In this document: positions 2,222 through 44,715 of the stretch, in pieces
Numbering within the stretch: the first letter of the stretch is position 1
Layout of the letters: each line of letters opens with the position of its first letter
Source: Pimelobacter simplex
GTDB taxonomy: Bacteria; Actinomycetota; Actinomycetes; Propionibacteriales; Nocardioidaceae
Assembly (NCBI RefSeq): GCF_024662235.1
Contig: NZ_CP096276.1
Span: 4,836,001 to 4,900,000, forward strand
Length of the DNA stretch: 64,000 nt
Direction of reading: 5' to 3'
The notes under the pieces: generated by a model
Told to the model about the DNA's origin: nothing
The model's database searches: none
What the model saw: only the letters and a program-made list of their open reading frames with translations
Translations under genes and position numbers: made by a program

Positions 2222-3363
2222 ACCGCGACATCTACGACGACGACCACGAGGCCTTCCGCGCCTCGGTGCGCGAGTTCCTCGAGCGCTCGGTGATCCCGCA
2301 CGTCGAGGAGCACCAGGCCAAGAAGGGCCTGCCCCGGGAGTTCTGGCTCGACGCCGGCCGCAACGAGCTGCTCGGCCTGGAGATCCCCGAGGAGTACGGC
2401 GGCTCCGGCGCCGGCGACTACCGCTTCAACGCCGTGCTCACCGAGGAGCTGAGCAAGGTCACCGCCTCGCTCGCCTCGTGCTGGGGCATCCACGCCGACA
2501 TCTGCGCGCCGTACCTGGTCGAGCTCGGGACCGAGGAGCAGAAGCAGCGCTGGCTCCCCTCGATCGCCTCCGGCGAGACCGTCCTCGCCATCGGCATGAC
2601 CGAGCCCTCCGGCGGCTCCGACCTCGCCGGCCTCAAGACCACCGCCGTGCGCGACGGCGACCAGTGGGTGATCAACGGCTCCAAGACGTTCATCACCAAC
2701 GGCTTCTCCGCCGACCTGATCATCACCGCCGTCCGCACCAGCCCGGAGAAGAAGGCCCGCGGGATCACGCTCTTCGCCATCCCCGCCGACGCCGACGGCT
2801 TCAGCCGCGGCCGCAAGCTCGACAAGGTCGGCCAGGACGAGTCCGACACCGCCGAGCTGTTCTTCGAGAACGTCCGCCTCGGCGACGACCACGTGATCGG
2901 CGAGGTCGACGGCGGCTTCATCCACATGATGCAGAAGCTCCCCCAGGAGCGCCTCGGCGCCGCGATCTCCAATATTGCCCACGCGAAGCAGATCCTCGTC
3001 GAGACCCTGCAGTACACCAAGGACCGCCAGGCGTTCGGCGCCCCGATCGGCACCTTCCAGCACAACAAGTTCCTCCTCGCCGAGCTGTTCACCCAGATCG
3101 AGGTCAGCGAGGCGTACGTCGACAAGTGCGTCCTCGCCCACAACGCCCGCGAGCTCACCCCGGTCGAGGCCGCCAAGGCCAAATGGTGGACCAGCCAGGT
3201 CCAGAACGAGGTGCTCGACCACTGCGTCCAGCTGCACGGCGGCTACGGCTTCATGAACGAGTACCGCGTCGCCCGCGCCTGGCGCGACGCCCGGGTCACC
3301 AAGATCTGGGCCGGCTCGAACGAGATCATGAAGGAGCTCATCGGCCGCGACCTGGGGCTCTGA
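2218..3363 (+). CDS. Acyl-CoA dehydrogenase
   Basis: 381-residue FAD-dependent acyl-CoA dehydrogenase that introduces the alpha-beta double bond. The signature GMTEPSGGSDLAGLKTTA (substrate/FAD loop) and the C-terminal LHGGYGF and WAGSNEIMKELIGR segments are present. At the position where MCAD has its catalytic Glu (before GT/GS) there is Ala. The base is instead probably Glu244 in KLPQERLGA, as in long-chain and isovaleryl-CoA dehydrogenases. That placement is by recalled family knowledge, not by alignment. It overlaps the TetR gene by four bases and follows no other promoter. Substrate is unknown; a long or branched acyl-CoA is the best guess. Confidence 0.93.
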   Translation: MNRDIYDDDHEAFRASVREFLERSVIPHVEEHQAKKGLPREFWLDAGRNELLGLEIPEEYGGSGAGDYRFNAVLTEELSKVTASLASCWGIHADICAPYLVELGTEEQKQRWLPSIASGETVLAIGMTEPSGGSDLAGLKTTAVRDGDQWVINGSKTFITNGFSADLIITAVRTSPEKKARGITLFAIPADADGFSRGRKLDKVGQDESDTAELFFENVRLGDDHVIGEVDGGFIHMMQKLPQERLGAAISNIAHAKQILVETLQYTKDRQAFGAPIGTFQHNKFLLAELFTQIEVSEAYVDKCVLAHNARELTPVEAAKAKWWTSQVQNEVLDHCVQLHGGYGFMNEYRVARAWRDARVTKIWAGSNEIMKELIGRDLGL

Positions 3364-3405
3364 GCCGCAGGCTCCGCCCCCGCCGACACGCCCTAGGCTG
3401 AGCCC

Positions 3406-4074
3406 GTGCTCTACGAGGTCCTCCACACGGTCGTCCCGCCGCTCGCCCGAGCGGCGTGGCGACCGCGCATCGAGGGCATCGAGAACGTGCCCCTCACCGG
3501 CCCGGTCCTGCTCGCGAGCAACCACCTCAGCTTCGCCGACAGCGTGGTCATCCCGATCGTCGCGCCCCGCAAGGTCGTCTTCCTGGCCAAGGCCGAGTAC
3601 TTCACCGGCTCCGGCCTGCGCGGACGGCTCAGCAAGGCCTGGTTCGAGGGCCTCGGCATGGTCCCCGTCGACCGCACCGACACCCGCGCCGCCCTCAACT
3701 CCCTCGACGTCGCCCTCGACGTCCTGGGCCGCGGCGACGCCTTCGGCATCTACCCCGAAGGCACCCGCTCCCGCGACGGCCGCCTCTACCGCGGGCGCAC
3801 CGGCGTCGCCCAGCTCGCCCTCACGGCCGGCGTACCCGTCGTACCGGTGGGGTTGGTGGGCACCGCCGACCTCCAGCCCGTCGACGCCCGCTGGCCCCGC
3901 CTCGCCAAGGTCACCGTCCGCTTCGGCACCCCGCTCGACTTCACCGGCCGGTTCGAGGGCGTCGCACCCGGCCGGGCGCGGCGCGAGGCGACCGACGAGA
4001 TCATGACGGCGATCCAGGGGCTGACCGGGCAGGAGCCGGCGGGGGTCTACAACGACCTGCCGGTCGAGGCCTGA
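3406..4074 (+). CDS. Lysophospholipid acyltransferase family protein (PlsC-like)
   Basis: 222 residues, close to the family norm. The acyltransferase motifs are in order: NHLSFAD (the HX4D catalytic motif, residues about 43-49), a central FEGLGMVPVDR segment, and YPEGTRSRDG. It should transfer an acyl chain from acyl-CoA to 1-acyl-glycerol-3-phosphate or a related acceptor at the inner face of the membrane. The GTG start at 3406 is the only reasonable one. It lies 42 bases after the acyl-CoA dehydrogenase on the same strand and may be read from the same message. Confidence 0.9.
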   Translation: MLYEVLHTVVPPLARAAWRPRIEGIENVPLTGPVLLASNHLSFADSVVIPIVAPRKVVFLAKAEYFTGSGLRGRLSKAWFEGLGMVPVDRTDTRAALNSLDVALDVLGRGDAFGIYPEGTRSRDGRLYRGRTGVAQLALTAGVPVVPVGLVGTADLQPVDARWPRLAKVTVRFGTPLDFTGRFEGVAPGRARREATDEIMTAIQGLTGQEPAGVYNDLPVEA

Positions 4075-4086
4075 GGCGGTACGCCG

Positions 4087-4782
4087 CTACCGGCGCTCGG
4101 CGTAGCGCGCCCACTGGGCGTCGACGAACGCCGTGAGCAGGTCCCGCGCCTCGACCGCGCCGTCGTCCTCGAGGCCCGTCGTCCGCCAGCTCAGCAGGTG
4201 CTGGCCGTCCCGGACGAGCACTCGGTGCTCGTGCTCGTCGATGGGCTCCTCCTCGTCGATCTCGTGGGTGCGCAGCCCGAACGCGAGCGCCTCGTCACCC
4301 AGCGGCGGCGCCGTGTCGCGCACGACGTCGAGGACCACGTACCTCCGGATCAGCTCCGCGGCGAAGCCGTTCGCGCAGTCGTCGATCGCGCGGTCGACGG
4401 CGGCGAAGACCTTCGCGGCGTCGTCGCCGGCGTACGTGAGGACCTGGACGTCGCCGTACGGCGAGATCCAGCGCGGGCTCGCCTCCACCCGGTCGCTGTG
4501 AACCGGGTGCGGCTCGAGCCTGATGATCGACGACAGCGGCTGGCAGGACTCGGGCGACGCCCGTCGGTCGTCGATGAAGTTGATCCCCGCCTTGCGATTG
4601 ACCGTGGCGTCCCCGACGGTCGCTCCCACCGGGAGCAGGATGTCCTCGATCTGGTCGACCGACAGCACCCCCGCGGGCTCGGCGGACCGGCCGTCGTCCT
4701 CTCCGTCGCCGCAGCCGCCCGCGGCGAGGGCGGCGACGAGGACGAGCGCACGGGCGAGCAGCGGGGCGGGGCGACGACGCAT
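4087..4782 (-). CDS. Putative lipoprotein
   Basis: 231 residues beginning MRRRPAPLLARALVLVAALA and continuing AGGCGDGEDD. This is a signal peptide with a lipobox ending at Cys, so the protein should be lipid-anchored outside the membrane. The mature part resembles the actinobacterial extracellular sensor-like domains (VDQIEDILLP near its start, two Cys further on), but I do not assign a function. I prefer ATG 4782 over an in-frame GTG eight codons earlier, because the signal peptide then starts normally. It lies 20 bases downstream of the Lrp gene on the same strand. Confidence 0.7.
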   Translation of the reverse strand: MRRRPAPLLARALVLVAALAAGGCGDGEDDGRSAEPAGVLSVDQIEDILLPVGATVGDATVNRKAGINFIDDRRASPESCQPLSSIIRLEPHPVHSDRVEASPRWISPYGDVQVLTYAGDDAAKVFAAVDRAIDDCANGFAAELIRRYVVLDVVRDTAPPLGDEALAFGLRTHEIDEEEPIDEHEHRVLVRDGQHLLSWRTTGLEDDGAVEARDLLTAFVDAQWARYAERR

Positions 4783-4802
4783 GGGGGCACTCTCTCTCAC
4801 TC

Positions 4803-5273
4803 TCACGGGCCGTCCACCGGCAGCGGCGAGACCGGCTTCGTCGTACCGAACGCGAAGGTGGTCTCGATCGAGGCGAGCGACGGGATGCCGCGCAGCCGGT
4901 CCCGCACGAACGCCTCGTACGCCGAGAACGACGGGACGACGACCTTCACCAGGTAGTCCTGGTCCCCCGCGAGGAGGTAGGCCTCGACGATCTGGGGCAC
5001 CCCGCGCAGCTCCTCCTCGACCGCGTCGACGACGTCGGTCCCGTGCGAGGAGAGGGTGAGCCGGACGAAGGCGGTGATGCTCAGCCCGACCGCCTCGGGC
5101 GAGACGACGGCGCGGTAGCCGGTGATGACGCCGGCCTTCTCGAGGGCGCGGACGCGGCGCAGGCAGGGGGACGGCGAGAGGCCGACCCGGTCGGCGAGCT
5201 CCTGGTTGGTCAGGCGGCCGTCGAGCTGGAGCTCCAGCAGGATGTGGCGGTCGGTGTCGTCGAGGGTCGTCAC
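4803..5273 (-). CDS. Lrp/AsnC-family transcriptional regulator
   Basis: 156 residues. The N-terminal helix-turn-helix reads LDDTDRHILLELQLDGRLTN followed by QELADRVGLSPSPCLRRV. The RAM effector domain with its beta-alpha-beta pattern (VEAYLLAGDQDYLVKVVV) follows. Such proteins sense amino acids and control transport or metabolism genes. GTG 5273 gives the usual start a few residues before LDDTD; an upstream frame adds eight unlikely residues. It is divergent from an EamA-type exporter, the classic arrangement for an amino-acid exporter controlled by its neighbour (inferred). Confidence 0.92.
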   Translation of the reverse strand: MTTLDDTDRHILLELQLDGRLTNQELADRVGLSPSPCLRRVRALEKAGVITGYRAVVSPEAVGLSITAFVRLTLSSHGTDVVDAVEEELRGVPQIVEAYLLAGDQDYLVKVVVPSFSAYEAFVRDRLRGIPSLASIETTFAFGTTKPVSPLPVDGP

Positions 5274-5310
5274 GTGGCAGATTCTGCTACAGATCAACTG
5301 ATTTGGGGCA

Positions 5311-5323
5311 CGATTGGCAATCG
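5311..5323. promoter_or_regulatory. Inverted repeat in Lrp-exporter divergent region
   Basis: CGATTGGCAATCG is a perfect inverted repeat with 6-base arms around one central base. It lies 38 bases upstream of the Lrp gene and about 60 bases upstream of the exporter start. Its size and place fit an Lrp/AsnC binding site, but no second copy was found. Confidence 0.45.
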
Positions 5324-5383
5324 CGTGCTCCGCCGATTTCCCTATCGTTGCTCCGCAGGTCGGATCAGCGAGAGGGCGGCGAC

Positions 5384-6355
5384 GTGGTGGGCGAGAGCAG
5401 TGCGCGGACGACGGGGTACGCCGCGCTGGCCATGACCGTGGTGCTGTGGTCGTCGTTCGCGCTGACCTCGCGCGGCATCGGTACGTCGAGCCTCACCGAT
5501 GCCGACGCGGCGCTGATCCGGTTCGTCGTACCGCTGGTTCTGCTGGCGCCGCTGGTGCCGCGGACCGTGCGCGCCCTCGCCCGCGAACGTACGACGACCG
5601 TGCTGCTCCTGCTGGCCGGCGGACTGCCGCACTACCTGGTCATGGCGTTCGGCGCCGGCCTGACCAACGCGGGCCTGACCGGGCTGCTCGTGCCGGGCAC
5701 GGTGCCGCTCTTCGTGACGCTGCTGCTCCTGCGCCGCCAGCGCGTCCCGGCCCGTGCGGTCGCCGCACTCGCGACGATCGTGGCGGGCGTCGTCGCCAGC
5801 GCGACGCTGGTCGGGACGGACGGCGGCACCACCGGCATCGTGCTCCTGGTCGGCGCCGGCGCCATCTGGGCCTGCTACACGCTCGGCCTGCAGCGGACCG
5901 GCCTGGCGCCGCTCGAGATCGTCGTCGCGGTCTGCGCGCTGTCGGCGCTCGGGGGCCTGGTCCTCACCCTGTCCGGGCTGCTGCCCTCGCACCTGCTGAG
6001 CTCGCCGGGCACGGTCCGGGTCGGCGACGTGCTGACCTTCGCCGTGCTCCAGGGCATCGGGACCGGGCTGCTCTCCACGCTCTGCTACGCCCACGCCGTC
6101 CGGGCGCTCGGCAGTAGCGTCGCCGCCGTCGGGGGTGCGCTCAGCCCGGTCCTCACCGCCCTCGCGGCGGTCCCGCTCTTCGGCGAGACCATCGGCGGGG
6201 GCTTGGGCGTCGCCCTTGCGCTCGTCGTCACCGGTGTCCACGTCTTCAACCGGACGCCCCCAGTCCCCCGGACCACCCGAGCGGCCTGGCCGACCGCGCG
6301 CGGCCCACGACCCGGTCCAGCGGCCCTGATGCGCGCCGCCGAGGTCCGGCTCTAG
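5384..6355 (+). CDS. EamA/DMT-family transporter
   Basis: 323 residues with about ten hydrophobic segments and the two tandem EamA halves typical of drug/metabolite exporters (first half about 15-140, second about 150-290). Both halves end in a GALSP- or GLLVPG-type turn. The C-terminal tail after FNRTPP is basic and not membrane-spanning. I start it at GTG 5384 (VVGESSARTTGYAA) after a GAGAGGG ribosome site; a longer frame from 5303 would cross the likely promoter. Probable role is efflux of an amino acid or similar metabolite under control of the divergent Lrp gene. Confidence 0.88.
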   Translation: MVGESSARTTGYAALAMTVVLWSSFALTSRGIGTSSLTDADAALIRFVVPLVLLAPLVPRTVRALARERTTTVLLLLAGGLPHYLVMAFGAGLTNAGLTGLLVPGTVPLFVTLLLLRRQRVPARAVAALATIVAGVVASATLVGTDGGTTGIVLLVGAGAIWACYTLGLQRTGLAPLEIVVAVCALSALGGLVLTLSGLLPSHLLSSPGTVRVGDVLTFAVLQGIGTGLLSTLCYAHAVRALGSSVAAVGGALSPVLTALAAVPLFGETIGGGLGVALALVVTGVHVFNRTPPVPRTTRAAWPTARGPRPGPAALMRAAEVRL

Positions 6356-6830
6356 CTGCCACCGAGCACCGCAGTCGTCACCGAGCGCAGCGAGCAATTC
6401 AAGCGAACGCCATGGTCAACGGAAATCGTTGACAGGAGATATCTCACATGCCAACATGGCGTATCGCTTGACGTGAATAGGGTTCTGCAAGCGGTCGAGA
6501 TGTAGATCGACGGTCACGGTGATGCCGAGTGCCCCGGTGGCCGACCTTCTGCTGACGTATCCAACCGTTCGATGCACGCCGTGAATGGCGCGTGACGGAC
6601 GCTACGTCAGGAAGGAGTCGATCCGAATACCTCACCATCTCTTGCGGCTCATCCCCTTTGGGTCGCACTCGCCGCTCAGTATCCGGGCCGTCGTCGGCCG
6701 TTACTGAGAACGCGACCCCCCGTCTCTGATTCGACGTCGTTCCCGCGACGTCTTTTCGTGACGCCCTGAATTTGGGCCCGAGCCTCTTTGGCGACCCAAA
6801 AATCCGATCGCTGCCTACAAGTGAGGAACG
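6356..6830 (+). promoter_or_regulatory. 475-base leader upstream of the ABC/HD/enolase operon
   Basis: No convincing gene lies here. Base composition is richer in A+T than the neighbourhood. TTGACA occurs near 6430, but I see no strong -10 at the right distance. Several short inverted repeats occur, and the last one is terminator-like (6733-6756). The message probably has a long untranslated leader, so control by attenuation or a ligand-binding RNA is possible. I do not recognise a known riboswitch class. Confidence 0.4.
6733..6756 (+). terminator. Terminator-like hairpin in the leader
   Basis: GACGTCG and CGACGTC form a perfect 7-bp stem around a 6-base loop (TTCCCG) and are followed at once by TTTT. 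It lies 75 bases before the first gene of the operon and could act as an attenuator. It could equally end a transcript from upstream. Confidence 0.5.
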
Positions 6831-7952
6831 ATGAAGACCATTTCAAAGTTTGTGCTCAGCGGATTGACCGTTGTTCTCGGATTGACCATCAGCGCGTGTG
6901 GTTCGGACTCGAACACCGCCGACAAGTCGGCCCGCCAGCCGGTGGAAGGCGTGGCCGACATCGCGGGCTACGCCCCCGACGACGAGGCATGTCAGCGGAA
7001 CAAGGATGCCGGGAAGATCACCTACATCTCGTCCTACAGCTACGCCGCCAGCGGCTCGATCATGGACGTCTTCATGGCGCGAGACCTGGGCTACTACGAC
7101 GCCCTGTGCCTCGACGTCGAGATGAACACCGCCGGCGCATCGGGCCAGCAGCTGGTCAACGCCAACAAGGCCCAGTTCACCTCCGTGGGGTCGGCGCCGA
7201 GCGTCCTGGACACCGTGGCGAACGCCGACAACATCACCGCGGTGGCGACCTACGGCACCACCGACCCCCACTGCATCCTGGCCAACAAGAGCATCAAGAC
7301 CCTCAAGGACCTGGAGGGCAAGCGGCTCGGCTACTTCACCCAGGTCGCCCCGGTCGCCCGGGCACAGCTCGCCAAGGCCGGCGTCGACCTGGACAAGGTG
7401 AAGTTCACCAAGATCACCAACTACGACCCCACCATCGTCACCCGGGGCACGATCGACGCCGAGATCGCCTACGCGTCGAGCCAGTGCGCCAGCCTCAAGG
7501 AGCAGGGCATCGAGTTCAGCGAGTTCCTGCCGGCCGACGCAGGCGTCGAGAGCACCTACAGCGTGATGGAGGTGAACTCGACGTTCCTGAAGGAGCACCG
7601 GGAGACCGCCGCCGACTTCATGCGGGCCACGCTGAAGGCGCTCCAGTACTGCCTGGACAACGAGGACAAGTGCGTGGAGCACGTGACCGAGCTGGCCCAG
7701 GAGGACAACCAGGGCGACTCGTTCCCGTTGGACCAGCAGAAGCGGACCTGGGCCGTGGAGTCGCAGTGGATCCGGGACAGCACGGTCAAGCCGCTGGGTG
7801 CCCACACCCGCGAGGAGTGGGAGGCGGCCGCTGCGCTGACCCTGGAGTTCAGCGACGTCAAGGAGATCCCGGATCTGGACACCGTGGTCGACTTCGACCT
7901 GGTCACGGACTTGTACGACGCCGACGACGTGCTGATCTGGCCGGGCGAATGA
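6831..7952 (+). CDS. ABC transporter substrate-binding lipoprotein (NMT1/NitT-TauT type)
   Basis: 373 residues. The signal peptide MKTISKFVLSGLTVVLGL ends in ISAC, with the lipidated Cys at residue 23. The mature part has the NMT1-like pattern: YISSYSYAASGSIMDVFMA, a GLYE-like segment (DLGYYDALCLDVEM), and DLEGKRLGYF. It should capture a small solute outside the cell for the next two proteins. A good AGTGAGGA site precedes ATG 6831. The stop overlaps the ATPase start (ATGA). Several Cys residues are present, which is unusual for this family. The ligand is not known; neighbours hint at an organophosphonate, polyol or similar compound. Confidence 0.88.
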   Translation: MKTISKFVLSGLTVVLGLTISACGSDSNTADKSARQPVEGVADIAGYAPDDEACQRNKDAGKITYISSYSYAASGSIMDVFMARDLGYYDALCLDVEMNTAGASGQQLVNANKAQFTSVGSAPSVLDTVANADNITAVATYGTTDPHCILANKSIKTLKDLEGKRLGYFTQVAPVARAQLAKAGVDLDKVKFTKITNYDPTIVTRGTIDAEIAYASSQCASLKEQGIEFSEFLPADAGVESTYSVMEVNSTFLKEHRETAADFMRATLKALQYCLDNEDKCVEHVTELAQEDNQGDSFPLDQQKRTWAVESQWIRDSTVKPLGAHTREEWEAAAALTLEFSDVKEIPDLDTVVDFDLVTDLYDADDVLIWPGE

Positions 7953-8755
7953 ACGCGGCGCTGACCACCACGGGTGCCGAGGTCCTGGCACGAGGAGTCA
8001 CCAAGCGGTTCGGCGTCCGGGGCCAACCGGTGACGGTTCTCGATGACGTCGATCTGCGGATCGCCCCGGGCGAGTTCGTCTCGGTGATCGGCCCCAGCGG
8101 CTGCGGGAAGTCCACCCTGCTGCGCATCATCGCCGGCCTCCTGGACGCCGACGAGGGCTCGGTCGCGATCAACGGCGAGACAGTTCCCCAGGCGATCCGC
8201 CACAAGACGATGGGACTGGTGCCGCAGACCCCGGCCCTGCTGCCGTGGCGCTCGGTGCGCGACAACGTCCTGCTGCCCACGCAGGTGAACACCGCTGCAA
8301 ACGCGGGCCGCAACCTGTTGGACGTCGACGAGCTGCTCACCTCCTTCGGCTTAGGCAAGGACCTGCGCAAGTACCCGCGGCAGCTGTCCGGTGGCATGCA
8401 GCAGCGCGTCGCGATCGCTCGCGCCTTCGTGTTCGACCCACCCGTCCTGCTCATGGACGAGCCGTTCTCGGCCCTGGACGAGATCACGCGCGACCAGCAA
8501 CGACTGGGGCTCCTGGACTTCTGGCAGTCCAACCGGCGCTCGGTCATGTTCATCACGCACTCGGTCCCCGAGGCGATCCTGCTCTCCGACCGCGTGGTGC
8601 TGATGGCGGCTCGACCGGGACGAATCGCCGAGATCACCGAGATCGACCTGCCCCGACCCCGGGACGAATCGGTGTTCCTGAGTCCGCAATTCCGTGAGTA
8701 CGAGATCCGCATCCGCGAGGGGCTGAGGAGGGTGATGAAGAATGCCGAGCACTGA
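7949..8755 (+). CDS. ABC transporter ATP-binding protein (NitT/TauT type)
   Basis: 268 residues. Walker A GPSGCGKST (about 48-56), Q-loop VPQTPALLPWRSV, signature LSGGMQQR and Walker B VLLMDEPFSALDEI are all intact, and THSVPEAILLSDRV contains the switch His. It powers import through the membrane protein that follows. Its start overlaps the binding-protein stop and its end overlaps the permease start by 14 bases, so the three are tightly coupled. Confidence 0.95.
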   Translation: MNAALTTTGAEVLARGVTKRFGVRGQPVTVLDDVDLRIAPGEFVSVIGPSGCGKSTLLRIIAGLLDADEGSVAINGETVPQAIRHKTMGLVPQTPALLPWRSVRDNVLLPTQVNTAANAGRNLLDVDELLTSFGLGKDLRKYPRQLSGGMQQRVAIARAFVFDPPVLLMDEPFSALDEITRDQQRLGLLDFWQSNRRSVMFITHSVPEAILLSDRVVLMAARPGRIAEITEIDLPRPRDESVFLSPQFREYEIRIREGLRRVMKNAEH

Positions 8756-9626
8756 GAACGTGTCCAGCGCGATCGTGGAGCTGGAGCAGACGCGTCGACC
8801 ACGTGCCGGGAAGGCCGCCGGAAAGTCCGTGAGGAGTGCGGCGCCCAAGTCTTCCGCCCTGGCGCGGTGGCGTTTCGGTCTCTGGGTTCCGCCCCTGGTC
8901 ACCTTTGTGCTGCTGGGGATCTCGTGGGAGTACGTGGCCCACTCGAACCCCTTCGTCATCCCGCCCCTGGGCAATGTCGTCGAGAGCATCACCAACGACC
9001 CGAGCGCCTACTGGAACAACCTCCTGGTCACCCTGAAAGAGGTGGCGGTCGGAGGCGGGGCCGCGATCGTCCTGGGTTATCTGCTGGCCGTTCTGATGTG
9101 CGAGTTCAAGATCCTGGAACGCGCTCTCATGCCGGTCGTGATGGTCATCATGGTGACCCCGGTCATCGCGATCGCTCCGGCCCTGGTGGTGGCCTTCGGA
9201 TTCGGGATGCTGCCCAAGTACATCGTCACCATCATCGTGGCGATCTTCCCGATCCTGATCAACTCGCTGGCCGGGCTCAGGGCGGTGGACCCGGGCACGC
9301 TGGACGTGCTCCGGGTGGTCGACGCGAGCAGGTGGGAGATCTTCTGGAGGCTGCGGTTCCCGGGGAGCATGCCCTACTTCTTCGCCGGGCTGAGGATCGC
9401 CATCCCCTTCGCCATCATCGGGGCCGCGGTCGCCGAGTTCGTGGCTGCCGGAGAGGCGGCCGGCTTGGGAGCCATGGTCTCCATCGCCGCATCCCAGGCG
9501 AACCTCGAGGTGACCTGGGCCGGGATCTCGATGTTCTGCGTGCTCGGGCTGCTCTTCGTCGCCGCGTTGACGCTCCTGCGCCGTCGGATCTTGTGGTGGG
9601 ACAACCACGGCCGCGCCCCCAAGTAG
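8742..9626 (+). CDS. ABC transporter permease (NitT/TauT type)
   Basis: 294 residues with a polar N-terminus of about 45 residues and six or so membrane segments. The EAA-type loop for contact with the ATPase is visible in VDASRWEIFWRLRFPGSMPY (about residues 186-205). It belongs to the binding-protein-dependent permease family seen with nitrate, sulfonate and pyrimidine importers. It overlaps the ATPase gene and is followed by a hairpin before the HD gene. Confidence 0.93.
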   Translation: MPSTENVSSAIVELEQTRRPRAGKAAGKSVRSAAPKSSALARWRFGLWVPPLVTFVLLGISWEYVAHSNPFVIPPLGNVVESITNDPSAYWNNLLVTLKEVAVGGGAAIVLGYLLAVLMCEFKILERALMPVVMVIMVTPVIAIAPALVVAFGFGMLPKYIVTIIVAIFPILINSLAGLRAVDPGTLDVLRVVDASRWEIFWRLRFPGSMPYFFAGLRIAIPFAIIGAAVAEFVAAGEAAGLGAMVSIAASQANLEVTWAGISMFCVLGLLFVAALTLLRRRILWWDNHGRAPK

Positions 9627-37229: not shown

Positions 37230-38957
37230 CTACCGACCGTCCGTGGACAGGTAGGGGCGCAGGTGCTCACGGAGGTCCGGGTCGCACACATAGACGTAGG
37301 TCCCGAGCATGCCGCGCGTCAGGAGCACGGAGTAGATGTTGCGGACGAAGCGCAGGATGTCCTCGTCGCTGTAGGTGATCCCGCGGATCCGGTTGTTCTC
37401 CTTGCCCTTGGCGTCGTAGTAGTGGTCGCGGTCGAAAACGATGGCCCGAGCCTTGCGGTCGTACCTCAGGTCACGGCCGATGATGACGCCGGCGTAGTTG
37501 AGGTCATACCCCTGGATCGTGTGGATCGAGCCAACCTCGTTGATCGAGCCCGGGGAATTGATCCAGTCGACGTCGGTCTGGTTCCAGCGCAGCTGGAGTC
37601 CGTCGACGACGATGTCGTACGCCGACTTGTCCTTCTTGGTCTGCCACCGCCAGGCGTAGCCGGCCACCAGGCGGGCGAGGCCGGATTCGTTGTCACGTCG
37701 GCGGATCGCCTGGTACATCTCGCCCAGGTCGTCGTACATCCGAAGGTCGTAACCGCCGAACTGCTGGGGTCCTGGCGGGAAGTCGGAGATGACCCTCCGG
37801 ATGTACCCGACGTAGTCGGAGCCGGCCTGAACCCTCATCTGCGTGGACAGGCGGTAGCGACGGTGCTGATCATCGACCTGGGTCACGAGCTCCGCGAGGT
37901 TCTCCTCGCTGACGTCGTGGGGGCGGACGCTCTGGGCCGAGTCGAGAAGGAAGACCTGGTGGTCGCTCTTGGCGATGATCCAATTGAGCTGGGTCTTGGT
38001 CAGGTCGTCCTGACCGAACAGGCGCTCGTTGATCGTCCGGAACTGGGTGTTCTTCTGTCCGGAGGCCTGGCTGGACCGCTGGTTGAGCCGATGTGTCTCG
38101 TCGACGATCAGCAGATCGAAACGGCCACTGTCCTCACCAACGTCGAACGGCGTCAGGACCATCGACGGATCGAGCCCCGGGGTCTTCTTGAAGACCTTCT
38201 CGATCGACTTGCGCAACGACTGTTGCGGCACGACCAAGCCGATGCGGAAGCCCTGCAGCAGCTCGGGATAGCCCTCGACGAAGAACTCGGAGAGAACTGA
38301 CTCGCCGTCGGACGGCTCGGTGAGATCGGCGTCCCTGATGTCCTGCAGGAGCTTGACGAGATAGACCGCGACGACGGTCTTGCCGGTCCCGGGATCGCCC
38401 TGGATGACGATCCGGCTGCCGCGCCGAGCGGCGATGTCCTCGAACAGCCCGTTGAGGATGTCCTCGACCGCGATCGCCTGGTCCTGCGACAGGGCCTTGA
38501 ACGGCGAGAGCTTGAAGAGATCGGTGTTCTCGATCTGTCGCACAGGGCGAGTGAACGCGCCACGGGAGCGAAGGGCTTCGAAGATCGCGTCGAAGGCCTG
38601 TTGGTACTCCGCGCGCCGGTAGTAGTCGGAGTTCGTCACGCCGTCGTTGCGGTTGAGGACGCGGTACTTCCCGTCACCTGCGAAGAGCCGGATGAGGAAC
38701 GACTCCAGGTCGAGGCAGACGGACTTGTTGAAGGTGGGGTCGACGATCACTCGTGCTGCGACCAGATCCTTCTTGCTCTTCGAGTCCAAGTGCTGCCGGA
38801 TGCGCGCCACGGTGTTGAGGGACTCGCCCACGTAGATCTCGGCAGGGTTGTCGAGGAGGTAGACCACCGGCCAGTTGCGGAAACGTGGGTCCCCGGTCGC
38901 CCAGGTGCTGAGGCTCTGCTGGTCGAGGGTGAACTCCTCGATCTCAAAGCCGGTCAT
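37230..38957 (-). CDS. GIY-YIG nuclease plus DUF2075 (SF1-helicase-like) protein
   Basis: 575 residues from ATG 38957. Residues about 25-110 form a GIY-YIG nuclease-like domain (VVYLLDNPAEIYVGESLNTV, RIRQHL, with Glu in DLESFLIRLF). The DUF2075 ATPase domain starts at about 165. Walker A is GDPGTGKTVVAVYL, Walker B LLIVDETHRLN, then FLLDSAQSVRP, STQMRVQAGSDY and, near the end, NSVLLTRGMLGTY-like SVLLTRGMLGTYVYV. It probably couples nucleic-acid translocation to cleavage. It overlaps the MazG-like gene by 14 bases. Such nuclease-helicase fusions beside a nucleotide hydrolase are suggestive of antiviral defence (inference). Confidence 0.88.
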   Translation of the reverse strand: MTGFEIEEFTLDQQSLSTWATGDPRFRNWPVVYLLDNPAEIYVGESLNTVARIRQHLDSKSKKDLVAARVIVDPTFNKSVCLDLESFLIRLFAGDGKYRVLNRNDGVTNSDYYRRAEYQQAFDAIFEALRSRGAFTRPVRQIENTDLFKLSPFKALSQDQAIAVEDILNGLFEDIAARRGSRIVIQGDPGTGKTVVAVYLVKLLQDIRDADLTEPSDGESVLSEFFVEGYPELLQGFRIGLVVPQQSLRKSIEKVFKKTPGLDPSMVLTPFDVGEDSGRFDLLIVDETHRLNQRSSQASGQKNTQFRTINERLFGQDDLTKTQLNWIIAKSDHQVFLLDSAQSVRPHDVSEENLAELVTQVDDQHRRYRLSTQMRVQAGSDYVGYIRRVISDFPPGPQQFGGYDLRMYDDLGEMYQAIRRRDNESGLARLVAGYAWRWQTKKDKSAYDIVVDGLQLRWNQTDVDWINSPGSINEVGSIHTIQGYDLNYAGVIIGRDLRYDRKARAIVFDRDHYYDAKGKENNRIRGITYSDEDILRFVRNIYSVLLTRGMLGTYVYVCDPDLREHLRPYLSTDGR

Positions 38958-39267
38958 ACTTCGCGCTCCGCCCTCGCGCACGCTCGACCGGGTACTTGCG
39001 CCGGCTCTCGTCGAGCTTGTCGAGGACGATCTGGTCCGGGTCGAGGTCCAAGCGCGTCGCAAGCAGGTGGCAGTACGTCAGCACGTCGGCGAGCTCGTCA
39101 CGCACCTCATTCACGTCGGCCCCCTCGTCGGCCCACTGGAAGCACTCGAGAAGCTCGGCTGCCTCGATGACGATGCTCTTCGCGAGGTTGGCGGGAGTGT
39201 GGAACTGCGCCCAGTCACGCTCGGCCACGAACTCCTCGAGGGCGCTGCGCACACGGTCGTCCGGCAT
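38944..39267 (-). CDS. MazG-like nucleotide pyrophosphohydrolase
   Basis: 107 residues from ATG 39267. The magnesium-binding motifs are EAAELLECFQW (ExxE) and EVRDELADVLTYC (ExxD), in the all-alpha NTP-PPase fold of the RS21-C6/dCTPase type. It should hydrolyse a (d)NTP to the monophosphate. It is the first gene of an operon with the GIY-YIG/DUF2075 protein and begins only about 33 bases left of the decayed tRNA-Ala fragment. Confidence 0.9.
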   Translation of the reverse strand: MPDDRVRSALEEFVAERDWAQFHTPANLAKSIVIEAAELLECFQWADEGADVNEVRDELADVLTYCHLLATRLDLDPDQIVLDKLDESRRKYPVERARGRSAKYDRL

Positions 39268-39299
39268 GCCGTGAGCATAGTTGCGAGGCCCGTCTGGTC

Positions 39300-39340
39300 G
39301 AGCGTAGGGGACTCGACCCCCTGACGCCTGCTTGCAGAGC
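39300..39340. repeat. Decayed copy of tRNA-Ala 3' half, candidate left attachment site
   Basis: Bases 39300-39340 align with 44645-44686 of the tRNA-Ala gene in the same orientation, about 36 of 41 positions identical with one gap. The copy spans the acceptor end, T-arm (TAGGGGACTCGA) and anticodon stem-loop (CCTGCTTGCA). This is the expected remnant when an element integrates into a tRNA 3' end. With the intact tRNA it frames a block of about 5.3 kb. Confidence 0.65.
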
Positions 39341-39535
39341 CACAAAATCATCCAGTATCCCGTCAATGCCAAACGTAAAACCGCAGGTCAGAGGTGGACC
39401 AAATGGACCGAAACCGCCATCTTTCCCCTACGGGTCTCCCTGCCACACCTACCTCGCGAGCATGGGATTCGTAGCAGGAGGTTGGAAGGGCGCCAGGGAC
39501 CAGTCCCCAAGCGACGATTTCGGGAGGTTTGCACC

Positions 39536-40281
39536 TTGGCAGGAAGACGGGGATTCGGGGAGGTCGAGCGCCGCACCCGGGAGCAGCGGCGTCACCTACC
39601 GCACGAGGTACGCGATGCCCGGCGAGACCTCACTACTCGCGCAGCTTCGGCGCCAGGATGGACGCCGAGGCCTGGCTCGAGCAGTCGTTGATCGACCGCG
39701 AGGAGTGGTCAGCTCCGGCCGCACGTCGGATGGCCGCCGAGCGCCGCGCCCTGGAGGCGGCGAGCAACACGGTGGCCGCCTACTCCCAGCGCTACGTTCG
39801 CGAGCGCGATCTCCGGCTGACGGCGGCGGCAAGGTACACAGGACTCCCGCGCACCCGGATGCTCCCCTACTTCGGGAGGTGCCGCTGCGCGACGTGACCC
39901 TGCCGGAGATCAAGCGCTGGCGGACGACGCTGGCCCCTGAGACGGAGTCGACGAACGCGGCCGCATACCGCCTGCTGCGCTCGTTACCGCCTTTCCTCTC
40001 GATACTCCAGCACCACCTGCTCGAGGTCACGGCCGACGGCAACAAGGGTCTGCTCTTCACGGGTCATCGCACCGACCAGATGAGCGCCCACTACCACGGA
40101 CCGCTACCGCCCCGCGGGCGAGAAGGCCGGTCGGCCGGACCTCACCATCCACCACTTGCGCCACACGGCGTTGACCATGGCCGGCCAACACGGCGCAACC
40201 GCCGCCGAGCTCCAGGCCCGCTCCGGCCACGCCTCTTCTGGCCCACAGCGGGCCTACGCCTTGCGACCTACCGCCCACTAA
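39536..40281 (+). pseudogene. Decayed tyrosine-type phage integrase
   Basis: No single frame is intact, but pieces of one integrase lie in order across several frames. TTG 39536 (LAGRRGFGEVERR, after GGGAGG) is the usual N-terminus. SGVTYRTRYAMPGE and HYSRSFGARMDAEAWLEQ are the arm-binding region. RRMAAERRALEAASNTVAAY, then PLRDVTLPEIKRWRTTL, is the core-binding domain. The C-terminal catalytic part is IHHLRHTALTMAGQHGATAA and LQARSGHAS, ending at TAA 40281. The segment with the first catalytic Arg is missing. Frameshifts and a deletion make it non-functional. It lies just inside the candidate left attachment site. Confidence 0.8.
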
Positions 40282-40354
40282 GACGCACGTTCTCATGCCT
40301 CTCCGAGTTTCCTCGGCGCCCAAGCCTCGTTCGCGCCCGACCTTGCTCAGGCTG

Positions 40355-41818
40355 TCAGCGGTTGAGCAGCCGCTCGATGATCGTGTCGATGCGGTCATGA
40401 AGTCGACGCCGGAGCCAGGTGAGACCGTCCCCCTCCTGGGAGGTCCAGGGTCCGTCCGCCCGGCACAGGTCGATGCGGGCATCTCCGAGTCCTGTCCGCC
40501 GCTCCGTCTCGCAGTACGTCTGCGAGGGGGCCAGCATCTGCTCGAGGTGGTGCAGGGCGAGAATGAACCGCAAGGGATTGGCGACACCGCGCCCGGCGGG
40601 GTGAGCGAAGAGGCTGACGAAGAGTTCGAGCTGGCTCGCGCTGACTCCGGCGCACAGGGCAGCGACGTTCGGTCGCCCGGAGACGGGCTCCCGCCCAGCG
40701 CGCTTGATGTACTCGGGGTCGTCGAGGTCGCCACTCATCTCAAGGGTCACGTCCTGCATGTTGATCTGGCCGGAGCAGGCAATGCAGGCGATGCCCGGCG
40801 TGGCAGCCTGGGTGCGCCGCGTCGCACCGCGCATGCCGCCGGTCTCGAACGTGTCGATTGCGATGCCGCCGTCGATCACGGGGATGAGGTCGGCGTAGGC
40901 GATCGAGTTGAGCACCGCGCGCGGCCACGGGCGGTCGACGCAGGAGAAGATGACGTCGTAGTCGAGCGCGGCAGTGAGCCCCTCGGGGCTGCAAATGCTC
41001 ATGTGGTGGGGGTTGGCCTTGAACTCGTCGGCCGTGGCCGCGAGACGCGCTAGCCGTGCCGCGACGTCGACCTTCCGTCGACGCAAGCGAGCATCGCGCC
41101 GGGTGGCGCCGATCATCCGGTCACGATTCACCACGTGCACCCGATCAAAGTCCATGATGCCGATCTCGACGATGCCGGTCGCGGCCAGGCGCTGGACGAC
41201 GTCCAGCGCAACGCTGCCGGCCCCAACAACCAGGACTCGAAGGCGGGCGATGTCCCGCTGAAGGTCGTCTCCCCACGCCGAGATGGTCCGGACCTGCGAT
41301 ACCTCGAGACGTGCCGGCGGGACGAGCTCGTCGTTCCACGACACCGCCAGCATCGTCCCCACGCGTCGGACCGAGCTCGCCCACTGCGGCCGTCCGTCGT
41401 TCCAGGTACGTGCCGACCAGGTGCTGTCACCAGCGAGCGTCAGGCCGACCAGCGGCAGTCCGGTGATCTGCTCGACCAAGCGTGCATAGGAGCTCTCGGC
41501 GTCAGCGTCCGGGCCACTGAGCCGCTGCCACCCACGGCCACCGGGGTGGCTGTGGAGGATCGCGACGCCATGTCCGCGCTGCGCGGCCAGTACGGCGATT
41601 CGCAGGACGTAGCTGCCCTGGATGGTCGCGTTGCCGTGCACCTGTCGGTCGCCCTCGATCGGTAGGTGCACCTCGTGGAGGAGATGGGTGGTGCGCATGG
41701 CCCCCGTGGAGACGGTGTACGTGGCGAGGCAGATGTCCTCCTGCCCGTCGCGCCGGAGGAGATGTGCGCTCAGGGTGTCGTGCACGCCCTGAGTCATGGC
41801 GACCGAGCGGGCGTGCAC
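40355..41818 (-). CDS. JAB protease-E1 (ThiF) fusion of a prokaryotic ubiquitin-like system
   Basis: 487 residues from GTG 41818, after AGGTGA. Residues about 10-150 form a JAB/JAMM metalloprotease domain with ILHSHPGG (His89, His91) and SGPDAD (Asp104), the metal ligands of a deubiquitinase fold. Residues about 190-420 form the ThiF/E1 adenylation domain: VLVVGAGSVALDVVQRL, IGIMDFDRVHVVNRDRM, then Arg/Lys-rich RRDARLRRRKVDVA and IFSCVDRPWPRAVLN. Cys pairs in IACIACSG and ALCAGVSA are candidate zinc or thioester sites. It should activate a Ubl C-terminus and process or remove the modifier. It is the last gene of the cassette, one base after the E2-like gene. Confidence 0.85.
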   Translation of the reverse strand: MHARSVAMTQGVHDTLSAHLLRRDGQEDICLATYTVSTGAMRTTHLLHEVHLPIEGDRQVHGNATIQGSYVLRIAVLAAQRGHGVAILHSHPGGRGWQRLSGPDADAESSYARLVEQITGLPLVGLTLAGDSTWSARTWNDGRPQWASSVRRVGTMLAVSWNDELVPPARLEVSQVRTISAWGDDLQRDIARLRVLVVGAGSVALDVVQRLAATGIVEIGIMDFDRVHVVNRDRMIGATRRDARLRRRKVDVAARLARLAATADEFKANPHHMSICSPEGLTAALDYDVIFSCVDRPWPRAVLNSIAYADLIPVIDGGIAIDTFETGGMRGATRRTQAATPGIACIACSGQINMQDVTLEMSGDLDDPEYIKRAGREPVSGRPNVAALCAGVSASQLELFVSLFAHPAGRGVANPLRFILALHHLEQMLAPSQTYCETERRTGLGDARIDLCRADGPWTSQEGDGLTWLRRRLHDRIDTIIERLLNR

Positions 41819-41819
41819 C

Positions 41820-42188
41820 TCAGATCACCTGCCCGAGTACGCACCGGACGTGGCTGATCCAGAGGTGGATCGGCTTGCGGCTCATGTCCCAGTGGCCGGT
41901 GTCGCGGGAGTGTCGCCGCCAGCCCTCGGGGCAGTCCTGGTTGTCGGCGTTGGTCTGGGCGAAGTTGACCTCGTCCTCGAGGTGGATCCAGTGCGGCGGC
42001 GTCATCGGCCATCCCTGGAGCTCGCTCACGCCGATGCCGGTGAGGACCTTCTGGCCCGCGCGAGCGCCCGCGGCGGGGACGACGTAGTACCTCACGACGT
42101 CCCCGCACACGGCGGGCTCGTGGCCCTCCTCCTCGAGGTCGGCGATGAACCGAGCCACGCCGTCCATTGGGATCGGGGCGACTGCCAT
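41820..42188 (-). CDS. Prokaryotic E2-like protein (Prok-E2 family E type)
   Basis: 122 residues. The sequence has the compact pattern of bacterial E2/UBC-like proteins associated with multi-ubiquitin genes: MTPPHWIHLEDEV, NQDCPEGWRRHSRD, GHWDMSRKPIHLWISHVR. Cys86 (DCPEGW) is the best candidate for a conjugating cysteine; Cys116 near the end is another. Assignment rests on pattern and on lying between a Ubl gene and a JAB-E1 gene. It would carry activated Ubl from the E1 to a target. Start and stop overlap the neighbours by one base or leave one base, so the three genes are tightly coupled. Confidence 0.75.
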   Translation of the reverse strand: MAVAPIPMDGVARFIADLEEEGHEPAVCGDVVRYYVVPAAGARAGQKVLTGIGVSELQGWPMTPPHWIHLEDEVNFAQTNADNQDCPEGWRRHSRDTGHWDMSRKPIHLWISHVRCVLGQVI

Positions 42189-42436
42189 CAGGCGACCTGG
42201 GCGCTCTGGCGCACGGTGACGAAGGCGTCGCCGTCCTTGAGCTCGATGACCTTGTCGTCGTGGCGGTAGACCTTGGTCTCGCCGTTGTGCTTGATCTTGG
42301 CGAGGTCGTACTGCGCCGGGTCGACGCCGGCGAGTCGCAGGAGAGCCGCGGCCTCCTGGTCGTCGTCGCGGGTCGTGTACGGCACGCCGTCGATCGTGAT
42401 CGTCAGCTTCTTCCTGAACTCCTGGTGGTCGTGCAT
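42188..42436 (-). CDS. Ubiquitin-like protein (single multi-ubiquitin-type domain)
   Basis: 82 residues from ATG 42436 with AAGGAGG five bases upstream. One beta-grasp-like domain is visible: KLTITIDGVPYTTRDDDQEA, LLRLAGVDPAQYDLAKI, and VIELKDGDAFVTV. This matches the multiubiquitin family, which usually occurs as tandem copies; here there is one. The C-terminus is QSAQVA, with no Gly-Gly or any terminal Gly, which is odd for a conjugated modifier. It opens the cassette, and its divergent neighbour is the HigB gene. Confidence 0.8.
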   Translation of the reverse strand: MHDHQEFRKKLTITIDGVPYTTRDDDQEAAALLRLAGVDPAQYDLAKIKHNGETKVYRHDDKVIELKDGDAFVTVRQSAQVA

Positions 42437-42632
42437 CTGGGCCTCCTTATGGCCTCGACGTCCGCCTTCTGCGAACTTGTTTCTCCACGGTACTCGACTT
42501 ATGCTCTTCGGTGCAAGGGTGAAGAGGAGATGGCGACTTATCTAGAACTCTGGTCGGCGTGCCGCGTTCTCGATCTCGACGTCGTGCCGATAGGTTCGCG
42601 GCATCAGCCGATGGGTGATGGAGCGAGTCCGA
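42437..42632. promoter_or_regulatory. Divergent promoter region of the Ubl cassette and HigBA pair
   Basis: 196 bases, richer in A+T than the surroundings. It must hold promoters for both operons; TTATGC near 42508 and TATCTAGA near 42540 are weak -10 candidates. No clear operator palindrome for HigA was found. Confidence 0.4.
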
Positions 42633-42932
42633 GTGAAGATCGAGTACGGCGACGAGGAGCTGCGTCGTCTGGCGGAGGAAGCCGACTTCCGTCCCAAGCA
42701 ATGGGGCCGCGACGTGGTCGTCGCCTACCGCAAGAAGATCCAGGTGCTCGACAGCGCGCTCGACGAGAGGGACCTGCGGGCGATGAGGTCCCTGAACCTG
42801 GAGAAGCTCAAGGGCGACAGGGCGGGGCAGTACTCCGTCCGGCTCAACGATCAGTTCCGGCTGATCCTGACTTTCCACACCGGGGACGACGGCAGGGTTG
42901 TCGTGGTCCTCGAGTTGGTCGACTATCACTGA
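42633..42932 (+). CDS. higB: HigB/RelE-family toxin
   Basis: 99 residues from GTG 42633 (VKIEYGDEELRRLAEEADFR), which has GGAG nine bases upstream; frames starting at 42615 or 42618 lack a site. The ParE/RelE fold features are present: VVAYRKKIQVLDSA, LNLEKLKGDRAGQYSVRLND and FRLILTFH. Such toxins are ribosome-dependent mRNA endonucleases. The antitoxin follows 14 bases later, giving the toxin-first order typical of higBA. Confidence 0.9.
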   Translation: MKIEYGDEELRRLAEEADFRPKQWGRDVVVAYRKKIQVLDSALDERDLRAMRSLNLEKLKGDRAGQYSVRLNDQFRLILTFHTGDDGRVVVVLELVDYH

Positions 42933-42946: not shown

Positions 42947-44023
42947 ATGAGTGCTGCCCTAGCCGAGGTCTTTCCTGTCGGCGAGGTACTTGCTGACGAG
43001 CTGGAGGCTCGGGGATGGACCCAGGCCGAGTTCGCCGAGATCCTGAGCCGGCCCGCACAGTTCGTGTCCGAGATCATCTCGGGCAAGAAGGAGATCACCC
43101 GCGAGTCCGCCACCCAGATCGCCGCAGCCCTCGGCACGTCGCCGGAGATGTGGCTGACCATGCAGGACCGCTACCACCTGTGGCGACAAGGTCAGAACGC
43201 CCAGGCCCAGGAGCAACTGAGCGACGTGCGCCTGCGGGCACGCCTCAAGGACCTAGCCCCAATCGGCGTCATGTTGCAGCGGGGCCTGCTCAAGGGGTCG
43301 ACGGCGTCTGAGCACGAACTCGAACTCAAAGAGCTGTACCGAATCGACGACATCTACCAGGAGCCCGAGCTGCTGCTGGCTGCACGCCGATCGAAGGCGG
43401 ACGAGGAGGTTTCAAGCACCCAGCTTGCATGGGTCGCCTGTGTCCGCCGGGCCGCGGAAGGGATCGAGGTCGAGAAGTTCGACCCGGACGTCTTGGCGGA
43501 CCTAGCCAGCCGCCTCACTCAGATCGTCGCCAAGCCCCAAGACTTCGCTGGCCTGCCCGAACTGTTCGCCAAGGTCGGTGTCCGCCTGGTCTTTGTCGAG
43601 GCATTCCCGGGAAGCAAGATGGACGGCTGCTCCTTCCTTCTCGACGATGGCGGCCCCGTGATCGGGATCTCGGGCCGAGGCAAGCGCTTCGACAAGGTGC
43701 TTTTCACGCTTCTCCACGAGGTGGCTCACATCAACCTCGGCCACTTGGACGGAGACTCACTGGTCATCGACGACCAAGCAGAGAGCCCCACCCTTGGGCT
43801 CGAGGAACCGGCGGATCAACAAGCGGCCTCATGGGTGCTGCCCAAGGACATCCCACCGGTACCCGAGCGCATCAACCAGGGATGGGTAACTGCGGTCGCC
43901 ACGGATCTCGGCATCAACCCAATCGTCCTGATCGGACGTCTTCAGAACGAGGGCCGGATTCCTTGGAAGACCACCCTGGTCAGAAACGCGCCGTCCGTGC
44001 TCCCCGTGCTGGCGAAATGGTGA
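42947..44023 (+). CDS. higA: HigA antitoxin fused to ImmA/IrrE metallopeptidase
   Basis: 358 residues with a strong AAAGGAGG before ATG 42947. The N-terminal helix-turn-helix (about 10-75) is GWTQAEFAEILSRPAQFVSE followed by IISGKKEITRESA, the HigA type. The C-terminal half (about 205-310) is an ImmA/IrrE-like peptidase with the zinc motif LLHEVAHINLGH. It neutralises the HigB toxin and represses the pair. The peptidase half may cut a repressor or the antitoxin itself under stress (inference). Confidence 0.9.
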   Translation: MSAALAEVFPVGEVLADELEARGWTQAEFAEILSRPAQFVSEIISGKKEITRESATQIAAALGTSPEMWLTMQDRYHLWRQGQNAQAQEQLSDVRLRARLKDLAPIGVMLQRGLLKGSTASEHELELKELYRIDDIYQEPELLLAARRSKADEEVSSTQLAWVACVRRAAEGIEVEKFDPDVLADLASRLTQIVAKPQDFAGLPELFAKVGVRLVFVEAFPGSKMDGCSFLLDDGGPVIGISGRGKRFDKVLFTLLHEVAHINLGHLDGDSLVIDDQAESPTLGLEEPADQQAASWVLPKDIPPVPERINQGWVTAVATDLGINPIVLIGRLQNEGRIPWKTTLVRNAPSVLPVLAKW

Positions 44024-44561: not shown

Positions 44562-44672
44562 GGGTTAGGGGTTCGAGTCCCCTAGGCGACGCTGAAATGA
44601 CGAAAGCCCGGCCGCGCTAGCGGTCGGGCTCGTCATTTTCAGTGGAGCCTAGGGGACTCGAACCCCTAACCC
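44562..44672. repeat. 26-bp perfect inverted repeat: inverted copy of tRNA-Ala T-arm
   Basis: Bases 44562-44587 are the exact reverse complement of 44647-44672, the T-arm and acceptor end of tRNA-Ala. The similarity continues inward (GCTGAAATGACGA facing CGTCATTTTCAG). So a second, head-to-head copy of the tRNA 3' end plus its downstream sequence sits about 60 bases from the gene. No tRNA body is attached to it. Confidence 0.85.
44605..44630 (-). terminator. Terminator hairpin after tRNA-Ala
   Basis: AGCCCG pairs with CGGGCT and CCGC with GCGG, with a G-T wobble between the two stem segments and a GCTA loop. Read on the minus strand it follows tRNA-Ala by 12 bases and is succeeded by TTTCGT. 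Confidence 0.6.
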
Positions 44673-44715
44673 CCTGCTTGCAAAGCAGGTGCGCTACCAA
44701 TTGCGCCAAGGCCCC
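44643..44715 (-). tRNA. tRNA-Ala (anticodon TGC)
   Basis: 73 bases without encoded CCA. The acceptor stem is GGGGCCT with AGGCTCC, discriminator A. The anticodon stem-loop CCTGC-TTTGCAA-GCAGG places TGC at 34-36. The T-arm is AGGGGTTCGAGTCCCCT. It occupies the conserved place near gyrA and is the apparent integration target of the island to its left. Confidence 0.96.

Follow-up and report, generated by a model that had tools for sequence, protein, structure and literature searches.

Described systems and the present locus

Iyer et al. (2006, PMC1779556) grouped as class 6e those operons that encode a polyUbl (Ubl, ubiquitin-like protein), an inactive E2/RWD-like domain, JAB plus E1 and a metal-binding protein Y, and the class is also summarized in the available part of PMC11354881. 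Their class 6e table lists one solo Ubl (Amac, Alteromonas macleodii) and one actinobacterium (Fsp.), for which a footnote adds that some E1s have a domain X replacing JAB (PMC1779556). For Bub, the available part of PMC13373217 gives 544 operons, 219 of them with CapW or CapH plus CapP, with no phage protection demonstrated; structures of Bub enzymes have been solved. The locus considered here lies in a 64,000-nucleotide stretch of the soil bacterium Pimelobacter simplex (contig NZ_CP096276.1, positions 4,836,001 to 4,900,000; hereafter the window). Three adjacent genes encode a Ubl, an E2-fold protein and a JAB-E1 fusion, and they face a divergent pair of genes for a HigB-like toxin and a helix-turn-helix (HTH) protein fused to an M78 peptidase. 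With a probability of roughly 0.6, the three genes form a Bub-like (class 6e-like) Ubl conjugation operon under stress control, and the HigB/HTH-M78 pair probably switches this operon on.

Judged from sequence comparison, the operon is best filed as a variant of Bub and Iyer class 6e and not of Bil. The nearest solved relatives of its products are Citrobacter BubCD and BubB (9ea4, 9eae), and it was therefore placed with Bub and class 6e. As in Bub, JAB and E1 lie in one chain, the E2 fold carries a W-S-R-like motif, the Ubl appears to be of the multiubiquitin type, and HTH and M78 control genes are often adjacent. Unlike in Bub, a tree branch (2.12 changes per column) lies between the E1 and its DUF6527-bearing relatives, DUF6527 was not found, the Ubl ends in -VA, and the E2-fold protein scores below Prok-E2_E. 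Compared to class 6e, the three kinds of protein are the same, and a solo Ubl and an actinobacterium (Fsp., which we take to be Frankia) were already listed there, whereas the fourth, metal-binding gene was not found in the window operon. The operon is not counted as a full Bub/6e member because DUF6527 as the fourth gene, which may not be in every Bub operon, was sought and not found.

The search for DUF6527 was made by tblastn with three DUF6527 proteins and gave nothing in the window between 36 and 46 kb; in the 18 fetched loci L045 to L062 it gave a single weak match (L045, E 1.8e-4), the translation of which had no Pfam match. Here and below, L-numbers denote fetched loci and G-numbers genomes, and the 19 operons compared are that of the window and those of L045 to L062. 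In a 27-row E1 tree, the branch of 2.12 (100/100) splits off 17 rows, including the window, from the DUF6527-bearing operons L014, L016, L017 and L019 and six others, among them L013, flagged as a long branch. The tree left out L062, L009, L001, L002, L010 and L054, the E1 of which is split by an insertion: in L054 (G371, 5239-9269) the E1 gene is interrupted by inserted open reading frames (ORFs) that look transposase-like by eye.

The three-gene operon and its products

An earlier note on this DNA, made by a model from the letters and an ORF list, had placed three minus-strand genes at most one base apart at 40355..42436, and the ORFs lie exactly there. AAGGAGG is located 5 bases 5' of the Ubl ATG, the E2-like ORF overlaps the Ubl stop by one base, and a one-base gap separates the E2 stop from the JAB-E1 start. 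The grouping exceeds chance: when the three window proteins served as queries, Ubl, E2 and E1 turned up together in 13 of the 18 fetched neighborhoods of E1 relatives; at that threshold, four of the remaining five held E1 only and one held E1 and E2. The description of the products as a Ubl, an E2 fold and a JAB fused to E1 was borne out, the Ubl as a relative of Multi_ubiq through two-domain homologues, and the host is, as had been said, an actinobacterium.

At E 1e-3, 2,751 of the 7,999 scored database candidates are relatives of the E1; the homologues viewed were the best 120 of these, the best 120 of 199 for Ubl and all 61 for E2. Within the host family, 18 of 294 genomes have an E1 match at E 1e-10 or better; at 1e-40 one occurs in 7 of 391 genomes of the order and at 1e-12 in 13 of 396 genomes of the phylum, and the E2 was matched in 6 of 394 genomes of the class. 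A pattern scan of 84,980 GTDB genomes gave two distant ThiF loci only, and the phage records gave no match.

Of the three products, the JAB-E1 chain alone has a confident Pfam match, ThiF (E 2.7e-24). Its E1 part is matched by PADLOC E1-E2 models (best E 8.6e-10), and its first PDB match is Citrobacter BubCD (E 3e-21), running over residues 6-324 from the JAB domain into the E1 domain. The JAMM residues E27, H89, H91 and D104 are present in 26 of 26 aligned rows and in BubCD, and S101 in 25 of the 26; the adenylation residues R234, K249, D295 and R300 and the cysteines C345, C348 and C436, which were considered as catalytic-cysteine candidates, are present in all 26. These rows stand for 25 operons (L009 = L061) and exclude L050, L054 and L062 as well as L001, L002 and L010, which are distant or partial. 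Presumably, the three cysteines resemble the metal site of the CxxC type known from ThiF/MoeB. In place of conjugation, the genes might serve a pathway of the ThiS/MoaD with ThiF/MoeB kind, for sulfur carriage or a cofactor, which would account for the fact that the E1 matches ThiF and MoeB models too, but this is very improbable in view of the E2-fold partner, the JAB fusion, the lack of biosynthetic neighbors by eye, and the BubCD match, which beats those to MoeB (2.3e-7) and ThiF (0.0037).

The 122-aa protein is a BubB-homologous E2/RWD-like protein without a conserved catalytic cysteine. Its AlphaFold model has a predicted local distance difference test score (pLDDT) of 91, with BubB as the top PDB match; a PDB sequence search with the protein alone gave no relevant match. 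A Pfam scan gave no match either, Prok-E2_E (PF14462) remaining below its curated cut-off, a family matched by the E2s of the cousins L014 (4.9e-34) and L016 (1.3e-27) and not by those of L020 and L061. Ser-Arg (S94-R95) is conserved across the E2 family, and no cysteine is, though the window protein has C86. Alignment A3 comprises 16 rows, with L049, L052, L057 and L058 left out and three cousins added.

The 82-aa Ubl appears, from sequence, to be a relative of Multi_ubiq, recognized via its two-domain homologues. Its own match to Pfam Multi_ubiq is weak and under the cut-off (E 0.029), whereas two-domain homologues exceed it (L048, E 2e-13; P0199, E 2.1e-9), as do the single-domain relatives L055 and L056. 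The Ubls of L054 and P0195 don't reach the cut-off, and that of L061 is without any Pfam match; P0195, which is 83% identical, bears the NCBI name 'multiubiquitin domain-containing protein'. A 19-row Ubl profile matches the solved multiubiquitin and Ubl-BilA chains (9d5b/8u38) at E 0.0055/0.0068, with the best single domain at about 0.05, and a PDB sequence search with the 82-aa protein alone gave no relevant match. The Multi_ubiq model found nothing in the host genome, and nothing in the control genomes either. An AlphaFold-type model of the Ubl reached a pLDDT of 47.5, probably for want of variety in its alignment (mean column identity 71%), and was excluded from the evidence. Of the two folds that the earlier note had proposed, E2 stands for the 122-aa protein, and beta-grasp is no more than likely for the 82-aa protein, given its relation to Multi_ubiq through the two-domain homologues; of the families that it had expected, ThiF was found, Multi_ubiq stayed under its cut-off and Prok-E2_E was not matched.

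Among the best 120 of 199 Ubl homologues, single-domain proteins end in VA (89 of 101), VG (11 of 101) or FA (1 of 101), and two-domain proteins end in VA in 19 of 19 cases and in GGVA in 17 of 19. Two-residue trimming would therefore expose a glycine pair in most two-domain Ubls. The listed tail heptamers of the 101 single-domain Ubls show no glycine pair at or just before the end.

These observations bear on the comparison with Bil that the earlier note had drawn. The Bil (BilABCD) parts list of Ubl, E1, E2 and JAB is all there, and an anti-phage system of that type would conjugate the Ubl to virion proteins through a cysteine thioester. The E2 C86 is retained in 61 of 83 aligned E2s, and the GGVA tails could be bared by trimming as just described. 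However, 56 of those 61 are the window protein and its close homologues; among 21 E2s from fetched loci, a count that includes the near copies L047 and L050, C86 is found in 5, and 8 are without any cysteine. Bil has separate JAB (BilC) and E1 (BilD) proteins, a catalytic E2 cysteine and a glycine tail bared by BilC, whereas the window has a single 487-aa ORF, no terminal glycine pair in the single-domain Ubls, and BubCD and BubB as the closest solved E1 and E2. The available part of PMC11354881 gives BilB a CEHH motif with the catalytic Cys138. A Bil-type system is thus improbable, and the comparison was wrong or overstated. The JAB-E1 fusion and the single-domain Ubl, proposed as a functional variant, were already published in row 6e (PMC1779556).

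For the preferred Bub-like operon, the following course is proposed. The ThiF domain would adenylate the C-terminus of the single-domain Ubl (Val-Ala, unless trimmed first). By analogy with BubB and BubCD, the E2-fold protein may bind the JAB-E1 chain, and it would help to pass the Ubl to a target without a conserved E2 cysteine, while the JAB domain of the same chain may trim or remove the Ubl.

The divergent HigB/HTH-M78 pair and the shared palindrome

The HigB and HTH-M78 genes next door to the operon were absent from the earlier note. In the HTH-M78 protein, Pfam recognizes HTH_3 (1.1e-7); its M78 match (0.0027) is below the cut-off, which a 59%-identical L045 protein exceeds, and a Pfam search of the host genome did not list it. 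M78 proteins, fused or separate, adjoin 14 of the 19 operons, or 12 of 17 when the near copies L047, L050 and L062 (M78 proteins 83% identical) are merged. Gene calls in the fetched loci came from a guanine-plus-cytosine (GC) bias script, and several families were assigned by eye; three of the 14 M78 proteins (window, L047 and L054) score below the Pfam cut-off, that of L046 was found by tblastn and genome search and that of L062 by tblastn only. M78 genes are uncommon, with 46 matches over the 70.8 Mb of 16 genomes; 10 of the 46 lie within a few kb of these operons, versus 0.10 expected in 10-kb stretches.

HigB, HTH-M78 and the same three genes are also found together in the congener G227 (L045), and three plasmids from Rhodococcus, two from a single species, carry this arrangement too. 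In place of HigB/HTH-M78, a divergent ImmA/IrrE gene is present on one Rhodococcus and one Pseudarthrobacter plasmid, and a plasmid from Rhizobium carries a row of HTH, ImmA/IrrE, multiubiquitin, E2, ThiF and DUF6527 genes. Other controllers are found as well. In L046, L047, L050 and L062 the M78 gene is on the operon's own strand; it lies upstream together with a sigma-70-like gene, and its product (343 aa in L050) ends in a cysteine-rich tail, a third controller arrangement. In L051, L052, L058 and L053, the last at the edge of a contig, an SMC/RecN-type ATPase takes the place of M78, in three of them along with a sigma-70-like and an unknown gene; L058 gave a match to PADLOC mad3 (E 5e-21), and this arrangement is possibly a second type of damage-sensing switch. 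In L055, neither M78 nor an SMC/RecN-type ATPase was seen.

The region between the HigB and Ubl genes contains a palindromic site (Table 1). The best site to the consensus TCACCCnnnGGGTGA matches at 11 or 12 of 12 positions in 8 of 8 divergent HigB/Ubl regions, and seven fetched loci, together 84 kb, have 10 sites of 11-12/12, nine of them within these regions. Several points weigh against a shared operator: four of the eight loci, including two from one species, supplied the consensus; the window palindrome at 42604 overlaps the HigB start, and a second operator-like site has decayed to 8/12; and in L046, L048 and L049, all without HigB, the best site reaches no more than 9-10/12. In the proposed course, the HTH-M78 protein, paired with HigB, would repress from the palindrome in the shared promoter region, and repression would end once DNA damage activates the M78 domain, by analogy with CapH plus CapP. 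CapH plus CapP comprises separate genes for an HTH repressor and an M78 protease beside an immune operon, with derepression following cleavage activated by ssDNA, whereas HTH and M78 are fused in the window and accompanied by HigB; L049 resembles CapH plus CapP in having separate HTH and M78 genes beside its operon, and these match PADLOC capH (1.6e-4) and capP (4.4e-8).

The M78 domain was formerly called DUF955. According to the available part of PMC4963859, HTH plus COG2856/DUF955 pairs adjoin 70% of PF14452 multiubiquitin proteins, and in Synechocystis the multiubiquitin cassette on pSYSX likewise lies next to such a pair (slr6057-slr6056), whereas in the window HTH and M78 are fused and a HigB gene stands in front. 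The same part of that paper proposes an addiction role for the pSYSX pair, and HigB/HTH-M78 might similarly serve as an addiction module that stabilizes the Ubl cassette on a mobile island instead of regulating it. Island and plasmid locations suit this explanation; against it are L049, where the capH- and capP-like genes have no recognized toxin gene beside them, and the palindrome between the divergent units in all eight HigB loci. It is rated a doubtful minority explanation, and addiction and regulatory roles may coexist.

The textbook toxin and antitoxin roles of HigBA are opposite to those found for PD-lambda-2. In the available part of PMC9519451, PD-lambda-2 consists of a HigB-like protein, an Xre-peptidase and a third gene and acts as an abortive defense, the Xre-peptidase being toxic alone and the HigB-like protein rescuing it. 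The window pair is like PD-lambda-2 in family and order, HigB followed by HTH-M78, and matches PADLOC PD-Lambda-2_B (E 7.8e-32), so that it could be an independent abortive-infection system merely sharing the island. Unlike PD-lambda-2, it faces a Ubl system, and no third, P4-antitoxin-like component was seen between 44023 and the tRNA by eye, no model for it having been run. At E 1e-15, HTH-M78 homologues number nine in 7 of 215 genomes of the genus. The five close ones, which include that of the window and are 49-100% identical, each have a Ubl operon opposite, which argues against independence: two face the present operon type and three (L098, L099 and L100, from G234, G260 and G203) face a multiubiquitin, DUF6791-ThiF fusion and DUF6527 operon with the same palindrome between. 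For these assignments, Pfam was run on part of the proteins and the rest were assigned by eye. Of the four weaker homologues (27-29%), L102 and L103 face Bub-like cousins, and L104 (27%) faces a Dyp-peroxidase gene and no Ubl operon, as an independent system would allow. In L101 (G225, 2309-6673), HTH-M78 and an unknown small gene face DUF7665, a weak Prok-JAB gene (E 0.0037, under the cut-off) and an E1-like stretch recognized by eye, which may together be a third operon of the Ubl type controlled by a switch of this kind. On balance, an independent abortive-infection system is unlikely.

A tentative and rather improbable extension treats all five genes as one system, in which HigB and HTH-M78 would be a dedicated toxin-armed switch and Ubl tagging via a cysteine-free E2 would temper or direct the toxic response. 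The HTH-M78 protein would then be repressor, toxin partner and damage-activated protease in one; triggering would free the toxic pair and the Ubl pathway simultaneously; the E2 might act at the conserved Ser94-Arg95; and the same switch would drive at least two operon types (Ubl-E2-JAB/E1 and Ubl-DUF6791/ThiF-DUF6527). This extension was rated lower because of the toxicity result for PD-lambda-2.

The mobile island

The small mobile island proposed in the earlier note was supported by a 44-bp repeat of the tRNA-Ala 3' end and a broken integrase recognized by eye. The repeat at 39297-39340 is 84% identical to the tRNA-Ala 3' end (44642-44686), the next-best match being a tRNA-Ile gene, followed by chance matches. 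The island spans 5.4 kb and holds the integrase remnant, the operon and HigB/HTH-M78; the one ORF of the remnant that was scanned gave no Pfam match. At the same tRNA-Ala/gyrA place, L049, from another genus of the family, has its operon relative with separate HTH and M78 genes, and its 18-kb stretch has no second copy of the tRNA-Ala end. In the congeners G129, G256 and G266, where tRNA-Ala also lies beside gyrA, near-perfect extra copies of the tRNA-Ala 3' end are found 14-16 kb away, which suggests larger islands at the same site and an integration hot spot.

Table 1. Positions of the operon, its divergent neighbors and the island features in the window
Feature	Position	Strand	Remarks
Left direct repeat, partial copy of tRNA-Ala 3' end (att-like)	39297..39340	+	44 bp
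Tyrosine integrase remnant	39529..40290	+	Across frames with stops; three frames translated apart, recognized by eye
JAB-E1 fusion (BubCD-like) gene	40355..41818	-	487 aa, GTG start; JAMM E27/H89/H91/S101/D104, ThiF domain 177-351
E2-fold protein (BubB-like) gene	41820..42188	-	122 aa; S94-R95 conserved, C86 not
Ubl (BubA/Multi_ubiq-like) gene	42188..42436	-	82 aa, ATG start, tail VRQSAQVA
Divergent promoter region, Ubl/HigB	42437..42614		Between Ubl and HigB genes
Decayed second operator-like site	42508..42522		8/12, where relatives have 11-12/12
Palindrome TCAGCCGATGGGTGA	42604..42618		11/12 to the shared operator; no other site in the 64-kb window scores as well; overlaps HigB start
HigB-like toxin gene	42615..42932	+	Divergent from Ubl gene; PF05015 E 4.2e-10; ATG at 42618 also possible
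HTH-M78 peptidase fusion (HigA-like) gene	42947..44023	+	358 aa; PADLOC PD-Lambda-2_B E 7.8e-32
tRNA-Ala	44642..44715	-	3' end 44642-44686 = right repeat of island

Further features were observed in the surroundings. An inverted copy of the tRNA-Ala 3' end at 44562-44587, about 55 bases from the gene, gives a large palindrome. At or outside the left repeat, on the minus strand (37230-39372), lie a gene for a Schlafen group 3 helicase protein, with an N-terminus that is GIY-YIG-like by eye, and a MazG-like gene, a defense-like neighborhood. On Rhodococcus sp. WAY2 plasmid pRWAY01 (L086), the operon is flanked by UvrD helicase, DarT and ADP-ribosylglycohydrolase genes and, on the opposite side, by an Abi gene, a defense-like cluster.

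Implications

The kind of operon and its general M78 neighborhood are already known, because class 6e, the Bub counts and the 70% pairing with HTH plus COG2856/DUF955 genes have been published. Within the reach of these searches, what is new is the actinobacterial group with three genes, its -VA tail, and the arrangement in which HigB/HTH-M78 and a shared palindrome stand opposite two types of Ubl operon; the 544 published Bub operons may or may not include the group. No paper naming HigB/HTH-M78 together with a Ubl operon was among the matches listed in the literature searches. Stripped to three genes, such operons must achieve conjugation with neither the fourth gene nor a conserved E2 cysteine, and they are therefore a small test bed for minimal conjugation chemistry. 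The recurrent HigB/HTH-M78 pair with its shared palindrome provides a concrete candidate trigger and joins a toxin-antitoxin module to a ubiquitin-like pathway.

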